A stretch of DNA of 64,000 nucleotides, from NCBI GenBank assembly GCA_937883785.1, contig CALGDE010000068.1:1-64000 (forward strand), read 5' to 3'. The stretch comes from an uncultured cyanobacterium. Its GTDB lineage: Bacteria > Cyanobacteriota > Cyanobacteriia > CACIAM-69d. The position numbers and the translations under genes were made by a program. Within the stretch, counting starts at the first letter, position 1; every line of letters begins with the position of its first letter. This document shows positions 7,280 through 16,927 of the stretch, one piece after another. Under the pieces are notes generated by a model. That model was not told the DNA's origin. It did no database searches and saw only the letters and a list, made by a program, of their open reading frames with translations.

Positions 7280-9028
7280 CTAGGGAACCCGTTTCCAAAG
7301 ATTGGGAAATTGTGTCCGCTGAATTGCATCAGGGCTTGATCGCCAAGACTCTGGTGGATAATAGGCAAAGTTTGGCAACGGTGGCGCTGCGGCGGGAACA
7401 GAGGCGTCGACGGGCAAAATTTGTAGGGCAATGCCGTCCTTGAGCTGGGGGGTTAGGGTAAGCAGCCGCAGGGGATCGGTGCTGGTAAGCACAATCTGGT
7501 CGGGAACTGTGGAACGGGTGGGATCAGGGGGGGCTAGGGAGTCAATGAGCACTTGGGCGATCGCCGGTACGTCGTAGCTGCTGTATTTATGCCACCAGGT
7601 GTTTGACTGGGTGCCATGGTACGCCGAAGATAGGGCGCTGAAAATCAGGCTCATGGCGGCAAAGCCATAGATAAATTGAAATAGGCGCGGCTGACGATTT
7701 AGACTTTGCCAAAACTGGGCGATCGCCCAGCCGAGAATCATCGCCAGCCCTAGGTACGCCAACAAAAAATAGCGGGGAATGGTGGAGCGTTGCCCGCCAG
7801 TGAGCAAATCTAGGGCTGCAAAGGGGATCACCGTGCCGAGCCAGCTAACCGGCAGCAACCATAGAGCGCGGGGCTGCGATCGCATCATCCAAACAATGCT
7901 GGCAATAATTAACCCCACGATGGTGACAATACCGATGGCGATCAGAGGCGTATCGAGCAGTCGCACCGGGTCGCCGTTGCTGGCGGTGATATCAAATAGG
8001 GGCTGGTTGGGAAATCCCAGTTGGGCATCGAAAAGTACGGCAGAGAGGTTTAGCAACCATCGCTGGAGCAACACCGGCGCAGAGAGGTCCCGGTTCAGCC
8101 AGCCGATTTGTTGCCGGTAGGTGAAGATGAAATATAGCCAGGGAGCAAAGGCAATTAAGGTGGCGATGCAGGAGCGAATGTAGTTGCCGAGGAATCGCGA
8201 AAAGGGGGTAGGCGATCGCCAGCTTTTCATCAACGTGCGGCGGTGTCCCCCCACAAAGATGCCGTGAGTGATAATCACCAGCAAAAACGGCAGTTGGGTA
8301 TAGAGTCCAACCATCAAGCTGAAGGCATAGAGAATCCAGCGAGCACGAGGATTGCCGGATCGGGTGCGGGTGGCTTGCAGCGCTTTTAAAAATGCCAGGG
8401 TACTAAGGGCGGTGATTAGCAGCCCTAAGCTGTAGCCCCGGGCCTCGCGGGCGTAAAGAATTTGAATAGGGGATAGGGCCACAACTGCGGTGGTGGTCCA
8501 TTGCACCGTGCGCCAAGATAGGGGGCTGGAGTGTTCGGGATATAGCGATCGCACCCAACGCCCCAGCTCCTGCACCAGCGCGTACATGACCGGCAACAGC
8601 CCTACTCCCAGCAGCGCTGATAAGCCACGGAGGGCAAAAGGCGTGTTGCCAAAAAGGGTAGCCCAGCCCCGCGCCAGCAAGTAATACAGCGGTACCTGTT
8701 CTGGGTTTTCGTACGCCAAACTGCTTAGGGTTTTATCCCAGCCGCGACTCGCCGCCCCTTCCGATGACAAATCAAAAAAATACGCGGTGAACTTGTCCGG
8801 TGACCACAACCGATCCAGCACCTCCGGTCCCGGCGATCGCACCTCTTCTTTGGTCAACCCAGCCACACGAATGCTGGTGATCGTTTCGTCGTACCAATAC
8901 ACCGCCCGATCCAGTGCCGTAAATCGCAGCACAATACCGAGGGCGATCGCCACGCCACAGCCAAAAATTAGAGCCCGCGTCAGGAAAGATCGCCGTACTG
9001 GCCGTTGTAACTGCGTAGGAACCAACAT
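7280..9028 (-). CDS. GT-C fold membrane glycosyltransferase (GT39/ArnT-like)
   Basis: A 582-residue polytopic membrane protein with roughly 10-12 hydrophobic segments. After the first membrane helix (about 17-37) comes an extracytoplasmic loop with W-Y-D-E-T (Asp47-Glu48). This is the acidic pair that marks GT-C transferases using polyprenyl-phosphate sugars (ArnT, PMT, GT39/GT83 families). A luminal segment with V-P-L-Y-Y-L-L-A-R-G-W follows, and further on A-L-R-G-L-S-A-L. The C terminus is a soluble domain of about 100 residues. It probably transfers a sugar to a lipid, protein or glycan on the outer face of the plasma membrane; donor and acceptor unknown. Only 10 bases separate it from the upstream GUN4/zinc-ribbon gene, so the two are likely co-transcribed. 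Confidence 0.85.
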   Translation of the reverse strand: MLVPTQLQRPVRRSFLTRALIFGCGVAIALGIVLRFTALDRAVYWYDETITSIRVAGLTKEEVRSPGPEVLDRLWSPDKFTAYFFDLSSEGAASRGWDKTLSSLAYENPEQVPLYYLLARGWATLFGNTPFALRGLSALLGVGLLPVMYALVQELGRWVRSLYPEHSSPLSWRTVQWTTTAVVALSPIQILYAREARGYSLGLLITALSTLAFLKALQATRTRSGNPRARWILYAFSLMVGLYTQLPFLLVIITHGIFVGGHRRTLMKSWRSPTPFSRFLGNYIRSCIATLIAFAPWLYFIFTYRQQIGWLNRDLSAPVLLQRWLLNLSAVLFDAQLGFPNQPLFDITASNGDPVRLLDTPLIAIGIVTIVGLIIASIVWMMRSQPRALWLLPVSWLGTVIPFAALDLLTGGQRSTIPRYFLLAYLGLAMILGWAIAQFWQSLNRQPRLFQFIYGFAAMSLIFSALSSAYHGTQSNTWWHKYSSYDVPAIAQVLIDSLAPPDPTRSTVPDQIVLTSTDPLRLLTLTPQLKDGIALQILPVDASVPAAAPPLPNFAYYPPESWRSSPDAIQRTQFPNLWKRVP

Positions 9029-9038
9029 TGGGGGCAGC

Positions 9039-10049
9039 TTAAGAAAGTTGACTCGCTAATGCAGCCATGTAGGGCACATCCCAACTGTCTGTATACATGC
9101 GCGATCGCCCTAGAGAAAAATTACGCCCGGCATTAGCCCCCGGAAAAGGTAAATGTCCTGGCGGTGCGCTGAGGTCAAAAATTAAATCCTGGTAGGCGAT
9201 CGCCTCATAAACGGTTTCCGTTTTTGGTCCCCGCATGCGATTAAAAAATGCTGCCACCTGCTCCTTCCAACTGCCGGGACTTTGATCCACCACCGGCACC
9301 GTACCCACCGCACGCTGCCAGCCTACCCGCAGGGCAAACTCCCCATAAACCCTCGGCTCATCCACGCCCACGGTGCCTCCCGCCTCTCGCCACAGGCGAG
9401 ATTGCACCGAAAATCCAAACTTTCCCTGGCTATATTTCACCCACAGCTCGTCAATTTGCTTCAGCTCCGCCACGGGGAAATTGGCGACGGAGCTATTGCT
9501 GGCAAAGTAGCGAACTAGCTGATCCGTTGCCCGATCCGCCTCCCGCCACTGCCCCGCTTCTAGGGCATTAAACAGCGGCTCATAAAGGGTCTCACGGGGT
9601 TTACCACCTCGCGCCTCGGCACAAACTCGATGCCCCTGCCCCTTCAACACCACATCTTTGTAGATGGTGACCCCGCCCACAACGACTTCCTCAATGCGAT
9701 CGTCATAGTCCTCGATATGGAAGCTAAAGGGCTGATTACAAAAACTGCACAGCCGTCGATCTAAGTCATTGCCGCAGTTGGGGCATTCTTTGATCGATGC
9801 ATCCACAACAAAAACGCCGCAGGAACCACAGGGGCGAGGGGCATTGCGCACCTGACTAAAGCACTCGGGGTGGAAGAACATGGCTGTGTCCATCGGTCCC
9901 TTCTCCATCCGCACCTCAGAAGGCTTCACTGGCTGTAAACACACCGTACAGGTCAGCCCACGATAATCCTGAGCCTGACAGTGGGGACAGTTTTCCGCAC
10001 TATCACTAACGGAGTTGCCACATTCGACGCACTGAAGAAGCTGAACCAT
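9039..10049 (-). CDS. Zinc-ribbon protein with C-terminal GUN4 domain
   Basis: A 336-residue protein. The ATG at 10049 (MVQLLQCVECG) is used because it opens the first zinc ribbon; the frame upstream is not conserved in character. Residues 1-125 hold a series of CxxC pairs (for example C7/C10, C21/C24, C34/C37, C74/C77 and later pairs) typical of tandem zinc ribbons. From about residue 160 the GUN4 fold is recognisable: an A-G-Q-W-R-E-A-D helix, I-D-E-L-W-V-K-Y-S-Q-G-K-F-G-F-S-V-Q and the closing F-D-L-S-A-P-P-G-H-L-P-F. Between the last two blocks there is an extra segment of about 50-60 residues compared with Synechocystis Gun4. GUN4 domains bind porphyrins and can activate Mg-chelatase; whether this multi-domain form does so is unknown. 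Confidence 0.85.
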   Translation of the reverse strand: MVQLLQCVECGNSVSDSAENCPHCQAQDYRGLTCTVCLQPVKPSEVRMEKGPMDTAMFFHPECFSQVRNAPRPCGSCGVFVVDASIKECPNCGNDLDRRLCSFCNQPFSFHIEDYDDRIEEVVVGGVTIYKDVVLKGQGHRVCAEARGGKPRETLYEPLFNALEAGQWREADRATDQLVRYFASNSSVANFPVAELKQIDELWVKYSQGKFGFSVQSRLWREAGGTVGVDEPRVYGEFALRVGWQRAVGTVPVVDQSPGSWKEQVAAFFNRMRGPKTETVYEAIAYQDLIFDLSAPPGHLPFPGANAGRNFSLGRSRMYTDSWDVPYMAALASQLS

Positions 10050-10443
10050 AGGGCGTGTTTGAGATAGACAGCCAGCGAGGCATAGAAATTTTGCCGTTCT
10101 GTGGTCCCAGAATAACCCACATTTTTTGGAATTTAAGTCCTCTTCTAAACCCCTCAAAATTAATGCACATCATCGCCAAACAGCATTGGGAATGGTCTAC
10201 GTTAGCGGTGGTCGTTACCCCATCGAGAAGTTTGATCGACCCTAAAACGTGCGGGCGATTGTGCCCTTAAGATTCCAGATAAATATGTTTTGGTCTCTCG
10301 GAATTAAGTAACGGGCTGAAGTTTATCGACGGGGCGATCGCGATTGATCTAAGCCGGTTTATGACTCTGGAGGAGTCGCCTTTGAAGGTTTGGGCATTGA
10401 GGTGGCGATCGCTGATATTTTGCAGGGTCTCCAGACAGAATAG

Positions 10444-10548
10444 CTACGAAGGCAGCAGCTTCTTCGCTAAATCTTCGGCGGCGGCGTGGGGGCTCTTGAA
10501 GTTGAACGCTAGGGCTAGGTTTTGGGTTTTACCTTTCATAAAGATCAT
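10444..10548 (-). CDS. Possible 34-residue ORF or gene remnant
   Basis: An ATG at 10548 opens a 34-residue frame with coding-like composition, M-I-F-M-K-G-K-T-Q-N-L-A-L-A-F-N-F then K-S-P-H-A-A-A-E-D-L-A-K-K-L-L-P-S. A second ATG at 10539 has GGAG nine bases upstream. The frame stays open for about eleven codons before the first ATG (ending in C-D-L-V-Q-L-E), so this may instead be the 3' remnant of a decayed gene. It lies on the same strand as, and downstream of, the PP-loop cluster and the 45-residue membrane protein. No family recognised. Confidence 0.3.
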   Translation of the reverse strand: MIFMKGKTQNLALAFNFKSPHAAAEDLAKKLLPS

Positions 10549-10663
10549 CTCCAGTTGCACTAGATCACAGAGTGTTGAAACTCAATTTTAAAAAAGCATC
10601 ATTTGTTACTTTCGCCGCGTCTATTATTAGCGCCGATATTAGCGCTGATTTCATTGGTTTTTA

Positions 10664-10801
10664 TCAGTAACTCTGGGACATATTTGCGTAGGTAAAAGCC
10701 CCAACGGTCCAATACAAAATTAGCCATAGCAGGCTAAGTCCTAAGGTTATTCCCAACACTGCGGCAATTACCTGACGCAAAACTTCCTTTAAAGCTTTCA
10801 A
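10664..10801 (-). CDS. 45-residue single-pass membrane protein
   Basis: A TTG start at 10801 opens a 45-residue frame ending in TGA at 10664-10666. A purine-rich AGGGGCAAGGGG stands just upstream and an in-frame TAG lies seven codons before the start. The protein has a short basic N terminus (K-A-L-K-E-V-L-R-Q), one long hydrophobic helix (V-I-A-A-V-L-G-I-T-L-G-L-S-L-L-W-L-I-L-Y-W) and a short polar tail (Y-A-N-M-S-Q-S-Y), the layout of a small integral membrane protein. It follows the last of three tandem PP-loop genes by 67 bases on the same strand and may be part of that transcript. Not recognised as any known photosystem or cytochrome small subunit. Confidence 0.6.
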   Translation of the reverse strand: MKALKEVLRQVIAAVLGITLGLSLLWLILYWTVGAFTYANMSQSY

Positions 10802-10868
10802 AGCCCCTTGCCCCTAAGATTGCTGCAATATCTCTTCGTTATCGTACCTAAACACCGCTTGATCTCGC

Positions 10869-12044
10869 CTATTTTTTACCCTTGATGCGATCGCGAACCC
10901 ATCGCGCCCCCTCCCGCAGCTCCCAAAAATAGGGCGTCTTTGCCAGAACCCTTGCTCGAAGGGGAAATTCAAACCCCTGGGCCTCAGCAAAATCGGCAAT
11001 TTCCCGCCGAAACGGATCGTTTCGTAACAGGGGCTCGGGGAAGTAGTTATGGCGAATCTTATAATAGCGATCCAAGTCAAACACTGAGCTGTAGCGATCT
11101 AATTTGCCTGCAATATCTAACGTTAATTGGGTTTGCAAGCATTTTTTACATTGCCCGCAATTTCCTGCCAATTTATTACTGCTGCAAATATCTAACCAAG
11201 TGTAAGAGTCTTCAACGTCTGCCACCTGTAGGGTTTTTTCCACCCGTGTATATTCATGCCCAACGGAAAACATTTCCATGGTTTCTGTGGATAGAAATGG
11301 CGTGGCGATCGCCTCCCAATAGGATAAATTTCCCGCAATTTCACGATGTCGATTTAGTTCAATATATTTGTATCCCGAGGAAAAATAATACTTACCTATG
11401 CCCCGCTGAAATAACAAAGCCACCGACCCATTACGAACCACTGAACTGGCGCGAAAACTGATGTTAACCGCCTGATAAAATTCTTCTAAGCTAGAGTTGA
11501 CTGCCACGTAGGGCAGCCCCAGCTTTTGGGTCAAAGGCAGCAGCCGATTGTACCGAGCTCTAAATAATTTTTCCCCACCTGAGCTATGGGATCCAACGTT
11601 ATTGAACAGTAGGTGGGTAAGGCGAAAGGCGTCGGGAATTTGATTTTCATAAAAGTGGCAATTTAATGTATGAAATGCGTCAATACCCCCAGAAAAACCG
11701 GTCATAGACCCGATGGGCTTGGTTGTGTATTTTTCCAGGTGCCGCGGTTTGATTTCAATATTTTTGAGCACCGGCAAAATATTTTTTAAAAGCCCTTGAT
11801 AGGCCGAGGAGAATACATAGTAAAGTCTTTCGGAAATAATGCCGTCAATTTCAATATCTTCCCCTAGCTTCATGGCGGGCATCAAAGCAGCGACCAAAGC
11901 TGCATCGGCGCGATCGCTCAGCAAATCCCTATATTCCTTTTCCACCGAATACCAAAGGGTTTGACTTCCTAACGAAGACTCAATCGTTACTTTGTATTTC
12001 GCTAAACCGTCTTCTTCAACTAAAACAGGGCGACTGATTTTCAT
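10869..12044 (-). CDS. PP-loop ATPase, QueC-like, paralog 1 (variant P-loop)
   Basis: A 391-residue protein, third in a tandem of three paralogs. Residues 1-105 form a conserved N-terminal domain (E-S-S-L-G-S-Q-T-L-W, S-D-R-A-D-A-A-L, G-E-D-I-E-I, S-E-R-L-Y-Y) that I cannot name. The PP-loop nucleotide-binding motif follows at 118-124 as SGGIDAF; the usual final serine of SGGxDS is alanine here. Further landmarks are N-N-V-G-S-H (148-153), E-Y-T-R (264-267) and a four-cysteine cluster C287-x8-C296-x2-C299-x2-C302, the zinc-site spacing seen in QueC-type enzymes. Family members activate a carboxylate or similar group with ATP (AMP + PPi). The actual substrate is unknown. The gene is AT-richer than its two siblings and the protein is the most divergent of the three. 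Confidence 0.8.
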   Translation of the reverse strand: MKISRPVLVEEDGLAKYKVTIESSLGSQTLWYSVEKEYRDLLSDRADAALVAALMPAMKLGEDIEIDGIISERLYYVFSSAYQGLLKNILPVLKNIEIKPRHLEKYTTKPIGSMTGFSGGIDAFHTLNCHFYENQIPDAFRLTHLLFNNVGSHSSGGEKLFRARYNRLLPLTQKLGLPYVAVNSSLEEFYQAVNISFRASSVVRNGSVALLFQRGIGKYYFSSGYKYIELNRHREIAGNLSYWEAIATPFLSTETMEMFSVGHEYTRVEKTLQVADVEDSYTWLDICSSNKLAGNCGQCKKCLQTQLTLDIAGKLDRYSSVFDLDRYYKIRHNYFPEPLLRNDPFRREIADFAEAQGFEFPLRARVLAKTPYFWELREGARWVRDRIKGKK

Positions 12045-12145
12045 GGAATAAGTGTGAATTGGGGTGGCTTCTAACTATCGACAATAGATTAAAAAATAGT
12101 TCGAAAAGCTGTTGCTTTTCTTCCGTCAAAACTTTAACCTCAGCT

Positions 12146-13321
12146 CTATTTCTTTCTTAAGCGATCGCGAATCTTTCTGCCCAGGTTTCGCCCTTCCAAA
12201 TAGAAGGGAACTTTTGCTAATAATCTTGCCTTGGCAGGGAATGCATAGCCTTGGGATTCAGCAAAATTTAATAGCTCCTGGCTAAAAAGGTGTTTGCCCA
12301 GGAGAATTTCCGGCAGGTAGCGATCGCGAATTTGATAGTACCGATCTAAATTAAACTGCCCCGAATACTTATCTAGTTTTCCCGTCGCCTCTAATGCCAC
12401 CAACGCCCATAAACACTTCGCGCACTGACAACAATTTCCGGCTTGTTTACTAGAGGCGCACACATCCAATGTGGTGTAAGTTTCTGGCACCGTTGTTAAC
12501 CGCGAAATTTTCTCGGCGCGGGTATATTCGCTGCCCACGGCGATCGCCTCAAAGGTTTCGGTTCCCAGCAGCGGCAGCAACATGGGGTCAATGCTGCCCA
12601 TGGAGCAGCCCGGCTGGGCTTGGATGCGGCTGTAGTCAAAGGCGGACGCATACAAAAAGGCGCTGATGCCCCGTTGTAGCACCAGAGCGGCGGCGGTGTT
12701 GCGCAGGGTGTGGCTTTTCTCAAAGGAAAATCCTTCGTAAAATACGCCGATATTGGAGTTGATGGAAACAAACGGGAGCCCGAAATCTTTGGCGGTATTT
12801 TCGAGGGTGCGATAGCGATCGCGAAACAGCCCTTCACCGCCGCTGCCGTGGGAGCCCACGTTGTTATAAAGCAAGTGGGTCAATGCGCGACTGGGCACCA
12901 CATCGGGGTTATAGCGGGGCAGGTGGTCCGCCAGGGCGCAAAAGGAATCAACACCGCCGGAAAATCCCGTCGCCACTCCGCCTTCGGTGTCCGGCGACCT
13001 TAACGCTGGATCCAGGTGTTCAGCGTGGATTTTTACCCGATTTAACTGGGGCAATAGGGTGGTTAAAAGTCCTTGGGCCCTTCCAGAAAGGTTGTAGTAC
13101 AGCCGTTCCGATAGGGGACCGTCAATGGACACATCCTCGCCCAAAATCATGGCGGGTAACAGCATCGCCACCAGGGCTCCGTCGGCGCGATCGCTCACTA
13201 AATCCCTGTACTGGGGCGGGAAGGAAAACCAGAGTGGTTGGGAGCCCAGCGAAGACTCCACCTTTGCCTGGTAAACAATGGCACTGTCTTGCTGAATTAA
13301 GGTTGGGCGGCTGATTTTCAC
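12146..13321 (-). CDS. PP-loop ATPase, QueC-like, paralog 2
   Basis: A 391-residue protein in the middle of the tandem triplet, about 100-110 bases from each neighbour and on the same strand. It starts MKISRP like the third copy. The N-terminal domain is conserved (V-E-S-S-L-G-S-Q-P-L-W-F-S, S-D-R-A-D-G-A-L-V, S-E-R-L-Y-Y-N-L-S-G). The canonical PP-loop SGGVDSF is at 121-127. Then come L-L-Y-N-N-V-G-S-H-G-S-G-G (about 150-162), Q-R-G-I (216-219), E-Y-T-R-A-E-K and the cysteine cluster C288-x8-C297-x2-C300-x2-C303 followed by L-W-A-L-V-A-L-E-A-T-G-K-L. All residues expected of an active N-type ATP pyrophosphatase are present. It resembles QueC (7-cyano-7-deazaguanine synthase) in motif plan but is nearly twice as long and has an extra N-terminal domain, so it is not assigned as queC. 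Confidence 0.82.
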   Translation of the reverse strand: MKISRPTLIQQDSAIVYQAKVESSLGSQPLWFSFPPQYRDLVSDRADGALVAMLLPAMILGEDVSIDGPLSERLYYNLSGRAQGLLTTLLPQLNRVKIHAEHLDPALRSPDTEGGVATGFSGGVDSFCALADHLPRYNPDVVPSRALTHLLYNNVGSHGSGGEGLFRDRYRTLENTAKDFGLPFVSINSNIGVFYEGFSFEKSHTLRNTAAALVLQRGISAFLYASAFDYSRIQAQPGCSMGSIDPMLLPLLGTETFEAIAVGSEYTRAEKISRLTTVPETYTTLDVCASSKQAGNCCQCAKCLWALVALEATGKLDKYSGQFNLDRYYQIRDRYLPEILLGKHLFSQELLNFAESQGYAFPAKARLLAKVPFYLEGRNLGRKIRDRLRKK

Positions 13322-13433
13322 GGGGTGGTTTTCGCTGGAGCGATTGCGGTGTGCTGGGGGAAGTGTGCGGTGGGAAATGTGCCGTGATAGAGGACGATGG
13401 CAAGGCGATTAATAATCGGCTAATCGGCGATGT

Positions 13434-14615
13434 TTATTGTTTTCTCAGGCGATCGCGCCAATGCCGGAAGGTTTGCCGCCCCTTTAGAAAGAGGGGAATG
13501 CGGGCGAAGAGGCGGGCTTTCTTGGGAAAAGTGTAATTGTGGGACGCTGCCAGGGTCAGCAACTCACCGCTGCGGGGATGGTCCCCGAGAAGGATTTCCG
13601 GTAGGTAGCGATCGCGAATTTGCCGATACCGCTCCATATTGAACTGGTTCTCGTAGTGTTCCAGAGCCCCAACAGCTTCCAGCGCCACCAGGGTCCACAA
13701 ACATTTATCACACTGGGAACAGTTGCCCCCCTGCTTATGGGAAGCACAGCACACATCCAAATGGGCATAGGTATCGGGAACCTCTGTCAGACGCAACAAT
13801 TTTTCGGCGCGGGTATACTCGCATCCCACCGATACGGCATCTAAATTTTCTGTGGAGAGCAACGGCAGCAACAGGGGGTCTATTTTCGCCGTACCGCCAG
13901 CGCCGCTGCTGCTGATTTTGGCGTAGTGGAGGGCGGAGGCATAGAGAAACACCCTGATTCCTCGCTGCAATACCAAGGGCACCGTAGTGTTGAGCACCGT
14001 GTGTACCTTGGCAAAGGGAAGTCCGTTGTAAAACTCACCAGCATTGGAATTAACGGCAACAAAGGGCAGCTCTAGCGTCTTTACGAAAGGCTGGAGAGCA
14101 CGGTAGCGATTGAGAAAAAGCTCCTTTCCGCCGCTGCCGTGGGAGCCAACGTTGTTGTACAGCAAATGGGTTATGGCATGGCTGGGAACCACCGTTGGAT
14201 TGTAACGAGGGTAGTGATCCACCAGGGCACAGAAGGAGTCAACGCCGCCAGAAAACCCCGTTGCTACACCAGTGGATTTGGCAGTAGATTCAGACGTTGC
14301 TGACGCTAAATGCGGGGCATGGATTTTGATGGTTTTTAAGGTGGGATCCAAACTGCGCAACAGGGCCTGACACCGTCCCGATAGGTTGTAGTACAGCCGC
14401 TCCGAAAGGACCCCTTCCACATGGATATCCTCTCCCCGAACCATGGCGGGAAAGAGCAGCGCTGCTAGCGCTCCGTCGGCGCGATCGCTCACCAACTCCG
14501 TGTACTGTTCCGCCAAAGAAAACCACAGCGGTTGCAACCCCGTTGCAGATTCAACGGCGACACGATACGTGATATTTCCTTCAGCGTGGGCTAATTCGGG
14601 GGCGCTAATCTTCAT
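13434..14615 (-). CDS. PP-loop ATPase, QueC-like, paralog 3
   Basis: A 393-residue protein, first in transcription order of the triplet. The ATG at 14615 (MKISAP) aligns with the starts of the two paralogs; a TTG six codons upstream is possible. It has SGGVDSF at 122-128, L-L-Y-N-N-V-G-S-H-G-S-G-G, L-Q-R-G-I-R-V-F-L-Y-A-S, C-E-Y-T-R-A-E-K and C290-x8-C299-x2-C302-x2-C305. It is clearly closest to the middle copy, with which it shares long identical stretches around the P-loop, the NNVGSHGSGG loop and the C-terminal R-Y-x-Q-I-R-D-R-Y-L-P-E-I-L-L-G. Upstream is glyQ on the same strand (123 bases away), probably an independent gene. Three full-length copies side by side suggest related but distinct substrates. 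Confidence 0.82.
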   Translation of the reverse strand: MKISAPELAHAEGNITYRVAVESATGLQPLWFSLAEQYTELVSDRADGALAALLFPAMVRGEDIHVEGVLSERLYYNLSGRCQALLRSLDPTLKTIKIHAPHLASATSESTAKSTGVATGFSGGVDSFCALVDHYPRYNPTVVPSHAITHLLYNNVGSHGSGGKELFLNRYRALQPFVKTLELPFVAVNSNAGEFYNGLPFAKVHTVLNTTVPLVLQRGIRVFLYASALHYAKISSSGAGGTAKIDPLLLPLLSTENLDAVSVGCEYTRAEKLLRLTEVPDTYAHLDVCCASHKQGGNCSQCDKCLWTLVALEAVGALEHYENQFNMERYRQIRDRYLPEILLGDHPRSGELLTLAASHNYTFPKKARLFARIPLFLKGRQTFRHWRDRLRKQ

Positions 14616-14738: not shown

Positions 14739-15644
14739 CTACGCCGACGCCAATGCCTCTAGCTTCTGGGGGAATGCTCCGTTAAGCAGGGGGAATCCCA
14801 AGTCTTCGCGCTTTTTCACGTACTGTTGCGCCACCTTCTTTGCTAAACCACGGATACGACCGATATAGCGGGTGCGTTCCATCACCGAAATGGAGCCCCG
14901 CGCATCCAACATATTGAACATATGGGAACACTTGAGCACGTAATCCAAAGCGGGCAGCACCAGCTCCTTTTCCACCAGGCTAATGGCTTCTTTTTCGTAC
15001 AGCTCAAACAGGGAAAACAGCATCTCCGGGTTCGACGCCTCAAAATTGTAGGCACATTGCTCAATTTCTCCCTGGAGGTGTACGTCGCCGTAGGTTAGGG
15101 AGTCATTCCACTGGATATCGGCGATCGCATCCACTCCCTGCAAATACATAGCCAGGCGCTCAAGCCCGTAGGTGATTTCAATAGCCACCGGATTGCAATC
15201 CAACCCGCCACACTGTTGGAAATAGGTAAACTGGGTCACTTCCATACCATCGAGCCACACTTCCCAGCCCACGCCCCAGGCTCCCACCGACGCATCTTCC
15301 CAGTTGTCCTCCACAAAGCGGATGTCGTGGTCGTCGGGGTTGATGGTGAGCGCACGCAGGGAATCCAGGTACATATCCTGAATGGTGTCCGGCGACGGCT
15401 TGATGAGCACCTGGTACTGGTAATAGTGCTGATAGCGGTTGGGATTTTCCCCGTAGCGCCCGTCAGAGGGACGACGGCAGGGTTCCACATAAGCCACTGA
15501 CCAGGGCTCCGGTCCTAGCGCACGCAGGAACGTGTGGGGATTTTTGGTGCCTGCGCCCTTTTCCGTGTCGTAGGGCTGCGCAATTAGGCAACCTTGGTCT
15601 CCCCAAAATTTATTGAGCGTGGCGATCGCATCTTGGAAATTCAC
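14739..15644 (-). CDS. glyQ: Glycyl-tRNA synthetase alpha subunit
   Basis: A 301-residue class II aminoacyl-tRNA synthetase subunit of the heterotetrameric (alpha2beta2) bacterial GlyRS, which charges tRNA-Gly in the cytoplasm. It is identified by the N terminus [14 protein letters not shown], then [16 protein letters not shown] and [14 protein letters not shown]. Motif-2 region Y-V-E-P-C-R-R-P[11 protein letters not shown] follows, with [10 protein letters not shown] and motif-3-like [13 protein letters not shown]. Full length for the family. The beta subunit gene glyS is not in the window, so the two are unlinked here. Start at the ATG at 15644. Confidence 0.97.
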
Positions 15645-15868: not shown

Positions 15869-15910
15869 GCCCAGAAAACTCAACCCAGAAAACTTAGCCC
15901 AGAAAACTAC
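15869..15910. repeat. 14-bp tandem repeat, three copies
   Basis: Three consecutive 14-bp units of the form (G/A)CCCAGAAAACTNN occupy 15869-15882, 15883-15896 and 15897-15910. The third overlaps the stop codon and last base of the minus-strand exported-protein gene. A degenerate fourth unit (AAAAAGCTCA) may precede them. Confidence 0.85.
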
Positions 15911-16728
15911 AGCTCAACTTGTCCTTCAAAGAGCACCACCTGTCGCTTGACCCATTGGCGATCGCGACCTTCACCCACCGCTTCATTCCGCAAGGTTAAC
16001 ACCCGCAAGGTGTATTCCCCTGGCTCCAAGTTATCAATAACCCCCTCCGCCTCATAGTCACAGCGACATCGACAGTGCTGATCCGTGGTGTCCTGCTCCA
16101 TCACTTCTAAAACTTGCTCCCGGCGCTTAGGAATAAGCTGAATTTGCGAACAGCAGTTGCCAGAGCGACTGTACTTAAACTGCACTGCTCCCGATTCCGA
16201 GAGCCCTTGAATATCTAAATCGGTAACTTGGTCGTCCCGTTCAGTGATGGTAACCGTGTCAACTGGGTCGTCCTGTTCAGTGATGGTAACCGTGTCAACT
16301 GGGTCGTCCTGTTCGGTGATGGTAACGGTTTCCTCTGCGGTGCTCTTAGGGAGACCTTGAAAGGAAGTCGCCCCAGCCCAAGGCATTTCAGCCCCAGCCA
16401 TTCCAGACCCAGCCGCTGCATTAACGGAGCGTACCTTCCTAGGGCAATCCTTTGCCGATGTATCCGACGCCCCTTCCGTGGACGAATCCCCAGCCTCGCC
16501 CCCTACACTCTGGATTTGGGGCTCATAGCTGTCGTCAACGCATTGATCCACCGTAAAGGTCCACAGCACCTCCTCAGGACGGGGTACGCCAGCCTGGGAG
16601 CTGTAGGTTAGCCCCACAACGGCTCCTAATACCCCTGCGATCGCCCCTCGCCTTAAGGTCCTTTCGAAGGGCTTTCGAAGGGATTTTTGAACGGCACTAG
16701 CGTTGTTGTGTACCCGACGGCTCAACAT
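15907..16728 (-). CDS. Exported or membrane-anchored protein with TVTITEQDDPVD repeats
   Basis: A 273-residue protein; the start at 16728 (MLSRRVHNN) has GAGAG five bases upstream. Residues about 25-48 are basic then hydrophobic (A-I-A-G-V-L-G-A-V-V-G-L), an uncleaved or cleaved signal. A variable low-complexity middle contains three 12-residue repeats T-V-T-I-T-E-x-D-D-x-V-x encoded by an exact-length 36-bp DNA repeat. The C-terminal ~110 residues look folded: a cysteine-rich patch (N-C-C-S, then H-C-R-C-R-C-D) and a beta-rich end with N-L-E-P-G-E-Y-T-L-R-V-L, similar in texture to Ig-like or carbohydrate-binding modules. Function unknown; probably periplasmic. Confidence 0.7.
   Translation of the reverse strand: MLSRRVHNNASAVQKSLRKPFERTLRRGAIAGVLGAVVGLTYSSQAGVPRPEEVLWTFTVDQCVDDSYEPQIQSVGGEAGDSSTEGASDTSAKDCPRKVRSVNAAAGSGMAGAEMPWAGATSFQGLPKSTAEETVTITEQDDPVDTVTITEQDDPVDTVTITERDDQVTDLDIQGLSESGAVQFKYSRSGNCCSQIQLIPKRREQVLEVMEQDTTDQHCRCRCDYEAEGVIDNLEPGEYTLRVLTLRNEAVGEGRDRQWVKRQVVLFEGQVEL
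16231..16338. repeat. 36-bp in-frame minisatellite, three copies
   Basis: Units at 16231-16266, 16267-16302 and 16303-16338 begin GTCGTCC(C/T)GTTC(A/G)GTGATGG and differ by only a few bases in the first two copies. They keep the reading frame of the exported-protein gene (12 residues per unit). The third unit diverges at its end. Copy number is a likely site of strain-to-strain variation. Confidence 0.9.
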
Positions 16729-16927
16729 AATTACTCTCAATAGATTCAAAAAATACGCAGAACTCAATAACGCGATCGCCCTGTGCTATTTTCATTGTTC
16801 CCAAATGCGCCCTAATTCCAAGGTAAACACCCTGGAAGATAAATTTCGATAAAACCTTGACATGCCTGTACAACTTCGATACATTTATTTTCACGAAACG
16901 ACGGCAACACCGGCGATTCCGCAATAC

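Follow-up and report, generated by a model that had tools for sequence, protein, structure and literature searches.

A triplicated gene family related to QueC and QatC in an uncultured cyanobacterium and its proposed role in surface glycan modification

Introduction

Enzymes of the QueC superfamily activate a carboxylate while converting ATP to AMP and pyrophosphate, and QueC-type enzymes have recently been found to modify proteins in phage defense. Here we describe three adjacent genes on a 64,000-nucleotide stretch of DNA from an uncultured cyanobacterium (GenBank assembly GCA_937883785.1, contig CALGDE010000068.1, positions 1 to 64,000; this whole stretch is called the window below). Their products are members of an undescribed family of PP-loop ATP-pyrophosphatases related to QatC and QueC. 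The family itself, its linkage to polysaccharide pyruvyl transferases and its convergent tandem arrays are new, whereas the PP-loop mechanism as such is not.

Several described systems invite comparison. Canonical QueC (PF06508) resembles the family in its SGGxD loop, in its C(x)8CxxCxxC cluster and, for about half of the family, in an R-N pair that possibly matches the VPxRN motif of QueC, but the YPDC motif of QueC is absent from the family, which has extra N- and C-terminal parts. QatC, from the Qat anti-phage system (NF041925, PF06508 cluster 2), is about 400 amino acids long and carries N- and C-terminal extensions (PMC13279940), as does the family, but its zinc variant reads C(x)19CGxCxxRR in place of C-x8-C-x2-C-x2-C. 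Cap9, from the type IV cyclic oligonucleotide-based anti-phage signaling system, shares a fold likeness with the family, but lacks the additional N-terminal domain. The tyrosine and aspartate with which QueC and Cap9 read the deazaguanine base (PMC13329287, PMC13279940), a motif for recognition of 7-carboxy-7-deazaguanine (CDG), are not found in the family.

Nitrogen chemistry on surface sugars also has precedents. The asparagine-synthase-type enzymes WbpS and WbqG produce uronamides from the uronic acids of surface polysaccharide (PMC7468200). Another precedent, WbpG, belongs to the PF06508 superfamily as an N-sugar amidotransferase (PMC13329287). Hence, adding nitrogen to surface sugars is something that PP-loop enzymes are known to do. 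The cysteine motif of WbpG, CxxC(x)6CxC, differs from that of the family, and curated amidotransferase models gave no match to family members.

Results and Discussion

Three maintained paralogs with intact active sites

The three genes are full-length paralogs arranged head to tail on the minus strand, as a sequence-only reading of this DNA had described them at about 390 residues each. Copy 1 (13434-14615, ATG start) encodes 393 amino acids, and copy 2 (12146-13321, GTG start) and copy 3 (10869-12044, ATG start) encode 391 each. Copy 2 is 62% and copy 3 is 44% identical to copy 1, the gaps between the genes measure 112 bp and 101 bp, and these are the only family copies in the source genome. 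In a sister species (G001) the triplet recurs with its gene order and flanking genes unchanged, and the orthologues there of copies 1, 2 and 3 are 85%, 86% and 82% identical to those of the window. The corresponding omega values of 0.12, 0.11 and 0.10 denote purifying selection, and thus all three copies are maintained. Judged from these comparisons, the triplet is more than a chance arrangement, since it is kept in the sister species with every copy under selection.

The motifs that the sequence-only reading had noticed are present in each copy. The PP-loop reads SGGVDS in copy 1 (14235-14252, residues 122-127) and copy 2 (12944-12961, residues 121-126) and SGGIDA in copy 3 (11676-11693, residues 118-123), where alanine occupies the last position of the loop. 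The four-cysteine cluster lies at 13701-13751 in copy 1 (residues 289-305), where two adjacent cysteines allow a C-x9 or a C-x8 reading, at 12413-12460 in copy 2 (residues 288-303) and at 11139-11186 in copy 3 (residues 287-302), all of these features being on the minus strand. Among 108 aligned family members the loop glycine is present in 108 and the loop aspartate in 107, while each of the four cysteines is found in 107 or 108; R268, K271, N296 and K302 are also near-invariant. The cluster is a probable zinc site to judge from this pattern, and the earlier view of a QueC-type PP-loop fold with its catalytic motifs retained in all copies holds.

The same alignment bears on the idea that these are PP-loop enzymes of the NcsA, ThiI or MnmA type, which would transfer sulfur or another group to RNA or a cofactor. 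NcsA and TilS do appear in the structural search described below with weak E-values, and MnmA in a sequence search at an E-value of about 1. However, the only cysteines common to copies 1-3 are the four of the cluster, which makes sulfur transfer or thiolation unlikely, and the neighbors of family genes are not RNA-modification genes; the tRNA synthetase genes that adjoin the triplet are common to one sister species only. We therefore regard a group-transfer function as very improbable.

The N-terminal 105-112 residues are predicted to fold independently. In copy 2 this domain (12986-13321, minus strand, residues 1-112) has the order b-b-b-a-b-a-b and, modeled alone, reaches a predicted local distance difference test score (pLDDT) of 94.6. 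It had been called unnamed, and it indeed matches no Pfam family; profile comparison with the QatC extension gave no sequence signal (probability 0.2%). A fold search with the domain alone returned weak RNase H-like matches only (E at least 0.04), and because D47 is the sole near-invariant acidic residue in RNase H terms, no nuclease function is claimed.

The spacer that divides copy 2 from copy 3 contains a terminator-like stem followed by a T-rich stretch (12103-12120), which may separate or attenuate transcription of these two genes. A promoter scan was uninformative, with 3 found against 5.6 expected.

A family on the QatC side of the QueC superfamily

Searches of Pfam, NCBIfam, PADLOC and PHROGs assigned none of the three copies, the QueC-like PHROGs entry reaching only E 0.08. 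A sequence search of the PDB gave no match for copy 2 and E-values of about 1 at best for the family profile, and a search of phage records gave no match. The PF06508 model matches none of the three window copies and one of 67 relatives at E 0.05; the QatC model NF041925 likewise falls short of detecting any window copy, with one relative at E 0.07. Only one Pfam entry recurs among the 67 relatives, namely DUF6395 (PF19932), a family of unknown function, which 27 of them match weakly with a best E of 3.9e-4. One DUF6395 member has a C-x2-C-x2-C stretch, as in the family, but it shows SNGND where the family has SGGxD, the family profile does not detect it, and the window copies do not match PF19932. 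We found no paper that mentions DUF6395.

Profile-profile comparison was more revealing. With hhalign, the PP-loop and four-cysteine region aligns to the homologous region of QatC over 216 columns at 89% (local) and 92% (global) probability, with E-values of 2e-6 to 8e-8, whereas a reversed QatC profile used as a control gave 0.5% and 0.1%. Against canonical QueC the family reached 10%, although QatC against QueC gave 97%. This difference indicates that the family joins the QueC superfamily via the QatC side.

The predicted structure agrees with membership in this superfamily. An AlphaFold2 model of copy 2, built on 67 sequences, has a pLDDT of 95.2 and a predicted template modeling (TM) score of 0.92. 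Foldseek matched the model to Cap9 with probability 0.95 (TM score 0.62 on the Cap9 length) and to two phage QueC proteins with probability 1.00 each, the E-values for these matches being modest (0.003-0.1); the QatC structures 9ZEF and 9ZEE are absent from the fold-search results.

We also considered whether the triplet is a duplicate of QueC or a QatC replacement and rejected this, as the genome has its own canonical QueC elsewhere and its other PF06508 match looks like MnmA. By the tests described here, the family works like a QueC-superfamily ligase but lies outside canonical QueC, QatC and Cap9. The proteins fall in no characterized family; had they fallen inside one with a known substrate, the sequence-only reading would have counted its proposal of an unassigned system as refuted. 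The family members that carried annotation here read "hypothetical protein," and the family lacks a curated model of its own, so naming it would give many loci a testable function.

Relatives in polysaccharide loci

The family is patchy, with 16 of 386 genomes of the phylum carrying it, yet widespread: one scan of genomes yielded 154 relatives, which come from bacteria and from at least one archaeon. By Pfam, the genes within two places of relatives mostly have polysaccharide functions. The pyruvyl transferase family PS_pyruv_trans (PF04230) accounts for 16 of 136 neighboring genes in one set and 8 of 120 in another, and other recurrent neighbors are GT2 and GT4 glycosyltransferases, Wzx-type flippases and Wzy-type proteins. 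In a local search seeded with pyruvyl transferases, in which two seeds (L050, L051) and one fusion (L058) are Pfam-confirmed and most others rest on that search, homologues occur in 40 of 97 family loci, within 5 kb of the family gene in 37 of the 97, and as its immediate same-strand neighbor in 22. With a background of 1-4 PF04230 genes per relative genome, this linkage is far above expectation.

Individual loci make the association more concrete. In a WOR-3 bacterium a single protein of 707 amino acids (L058:3037-5160) unites the family with a polysaccharide pyruvyl transferase domain recognized by Pfam. In four loci of close relatives (L051, L052, L057 and L067) the next downstream gene is a pyruvyl transferase. 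RefSeq records of Gloeothece verrucosa show three glycosyltransferases followed by a pyruvyl transferase and, after 14 bp, the family gene, an order repeated in Gloeothece citriformis. We found no paper linking QueC-like proteins with polysaccharide pyruvyl transferase.

These neighborhoods, together with the superfamily chemistry, underlie our proposal that family members are QueC/QatC-type ligases for surface glycans, which would use ATP to activate a sugar-linked carboxylate and probably form an amide; we hold this reading with roughly even confidence. The contextual evidence for a surface-glycan role is strong, and the amide-forming reaction is what we infer from the superfamily, for which carboxylate adenylation followed by attack of a nitrogen nucleophile would be the most economical scheme by analogy. 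ATP would bind at SGGxD, and the enzyme would adenylate a sugar-borne carboxylate, such as that of a uronate, a pyruvyl ketal or a related acid. An amine, either ammonia or an amino compound, would then displace AMP, so that the glycan or its precursor would end up with an amide, and the N-terminal domain might bind the glycan or a partner transferase. For this cyanobacterium, we propose that the three copies, which are specific to its lineage, act on related substrates or assemble into a mixed oligomer. If this is correct, a separate branch, spread across many phyla and found in surface-sugar clusters, would extend QueC-type chemistry to glycans. Among the three pathways that the sequence-only reading had floated (modified nucleobase, capped peptide or glycan modification), the neighborhoods back the glycan; a modified nucleobase finds no support, given the genome's own QueC and the missing CDG-recognition motif.

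Several points weigh against this proposal. The window triplet has no surrounding polysaccharide cluster, the GT-C glycosyltransferase gene described below being alone nearby, and the two PF04230 genes of the source genome are on other contigs than the triplet. A family member on a Paracoccus plasmid lies among catabolic genes. Finally, the linkage to pyruvyl transferases may, at least partly, mark polysaccharide loci in general. It is conceivable that the triplet of the window species has left polysaccharide synthesis and serves another pathway. Its housekeeping neighbors would fit such a departure, as would the divergence of the same-genome copies to 44-62% identity, but both species keep a GT-C glycosyltransferase close to the triplet, which itself retains all core residues. 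We consider this departure a genuine possibility, if on the whole a doubtful one.

A glycan pathway could also involve a reaction other than amide formation, such as the transfer of an acyl group or an amino acid at the expense of ATP, or a step that leaves a nitrile or amidine on a sugar. QueC itself makes an amide and a nitrile (PMC13329287), a TupA-like ATP-grasp gene neighbors one family member (L036), and non-ribosomal peptide synthetases stand beside two Gloeothece members. Nevertheless, the named neighbors are inconsistent between loci, and we judge such chemistries rather unlikely. The two Gloeothece loci, both on plasmids (L208, L209), combine glycosyltransferases, a pyruvyl transferase and the family gene with these synthetases, and in one case a sulfotransferase; their product is possibly a glycosylated peptide.

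Another explanation is that the family resembles QatC and Cap9 in modifying proteins, attaching a small molecule with a carboxylate, which might be CDG, to an amine of a protein for defense or regulation. QatC is the nearest profile relative, and the layout of an N-terminal extension, a QueC core and C-terminal helices parallels that of QatC (PMC13279940). In addition, two Gastranaerophilales loci have queD-like genes (L037:6676-7041 and L039:13082-13447) at a distance of 2-3 kb from the fused members there, and one Bacteroidales member has a queD-like gene (L099:5548-6542) together with queE-like and queC-like genes within a few kb; named by a look at their sequences, these neighbors are a weak hint of a deazaguanine link. 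However, columns 241 and 243, which hold the base-reading tyrosine and aspartate in QueC and Cap9, are variable across the 108 aligned members, and the N-terminal domain gives no sequence signal of homology to that of QatC. PADLOC matched none of the triplet copies, no QatA, QatB or QatD was found among five window proteins screened with PADLOC or among the Pfam-scanned window neighbors, and no CD-NTase is named among the neighbors of the triplet. The neighbors of relatives are, moreover, overwhelmingly glycan genes. Protein modification therefore seems distinctly unlikely.

The fused members just mentioned belong to a set of four Gastranaerophilales proteins (L035:13290-15158, L037:9430-11292, L039:8792-10654 and L040:2840-4705) in which the family is joined to a C-terminal domain resembling S11 D-Ala-D-Ala carboxypeptidases, with Pfam matches for L035 and L037. 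Inspected by eye, the position of the catalytic serine in the SxxK motif reads glycine in all four, and no signal peptide is apparent. With glycine in place of the catalytic serine, this may be a binding domain.

Recurrent tandem arrays

Nine loci carry two or three copies side by side: those of the window lineage (two species), two triplets in Planctomycetota (L054, L055), L064, and one locus each in Chloroflexota (L052), Gemmatimonadota (L053), Gastranaerophilales (L073) and Lachnospiraceae (L113). In a tree of 43 rows each tandem set forms its own clade, and a tree of 108 rows agrees. Bootstrap values are 95/94 for the window set, 100/100 for L054/L055, 96/96 for L052, 100/99 for L053, 99/95 for L064, and 100/100 for both L073 and L113. 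These clades indicate seven independent tandem expansions, and they led us to reject orthologous triplets shared across phyla. Gene conversion could mimic the pattern in the two-copy sets, but each copy of the cyanobacterial triplet, and likewise of the planctomycete one, groups with its orthologue from the second species. The sequence-only reading had named as refuting its proposal the case that homologues are always single genes with unrelated neighbors; instead, tandem sets exist in seven lineages and polysaccharide genes recur beside the family.

No tandem copy has lost the loop glycine, the loop aspartate or any of the four cysteines. Hence each copy is probably an enzyme in its own right, as opposed to an inactive partner of a single active one. 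It is unusual for a biosynthetic enzyme to expand in tandem repeatedly while its active sites stay intact. Among the matches listed for the canonical QueC model in 69 genomes, no two strong ones lie side by side. The simplest ideas for the recurrent arrays are that the copies serve different acceptor positions or form a mixed oligomer, and the three window copies may, as had been proposed, act on distinct substrates in one pathway. A bolder version, which we consider improbable at present, would couple QueC-type ATP chemistry to polysaccharide pyruvylation in an undescribed glycan modification, such as an amide of a pyruvyl ketal or sugar acid, with two- and three-paralog arrays, evolved at least seven times, handling several positions or forming a mixed complex.

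Neighboring genes in the window

By Pfam, the genes around the triplet are glyQ (14739-15644, minus strand, upstream of the triplet), lysS, those for IF-2 and NusA, pdxJ, a GUN4 protein gene and one GT-C gene. The GT-C gene (7280-9028, minus strand) encodes a membrane glycosyltransferase of 582 amino acids with a TMEM260-like Pfam match slightly under the cut-off, and is kept beside the triplet in the sister species. A homologue with 30% identity (L031:11241-12938) is separated by 31 bp from a distant member of the family, the two being on opposite strands. A minus-strand gene lying between the GT-C gene and the triplet (9039-10157) encodes zinc ribbons and a GUN4 domain recognized by Pfam. 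Its PADLOC match to PD-T4-6 (E 1e-20) coincides with the GUN4 region and probably does not point to defense.

The sequence-only reading had attached miniature genes to the triplet, and this part of the proposed system is not supported. An open reading frame (ORF) for a 45-residue membrane protein (10664-10801, minus strand, TTG start) follows copy 3 after 67 bp and is a real and strongly conserved gene as judged by its 93% identity and omega of 0.03 in comparison with G001. However, a homologue with 55% identity occurs in a genome of the same taxonomic family without the triplet (G002), and hence it is not a dedicated partner. The second candidate, a 34-residue ORF (10444-10548) that corresponds to a 38-codon ORF on the minus strand (10444-10560), is not conserved; no counterpart was found when one was looked for in G001, and it is probably not a gene. 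Farther upstream of the triplet, at 15907-16767, lies a gene for a 286-residue protein with short internal repeats (TVTITEQDDPVD) and no family assignment, which is 59% identical in the sister species and is evolving faster than its neighbors.

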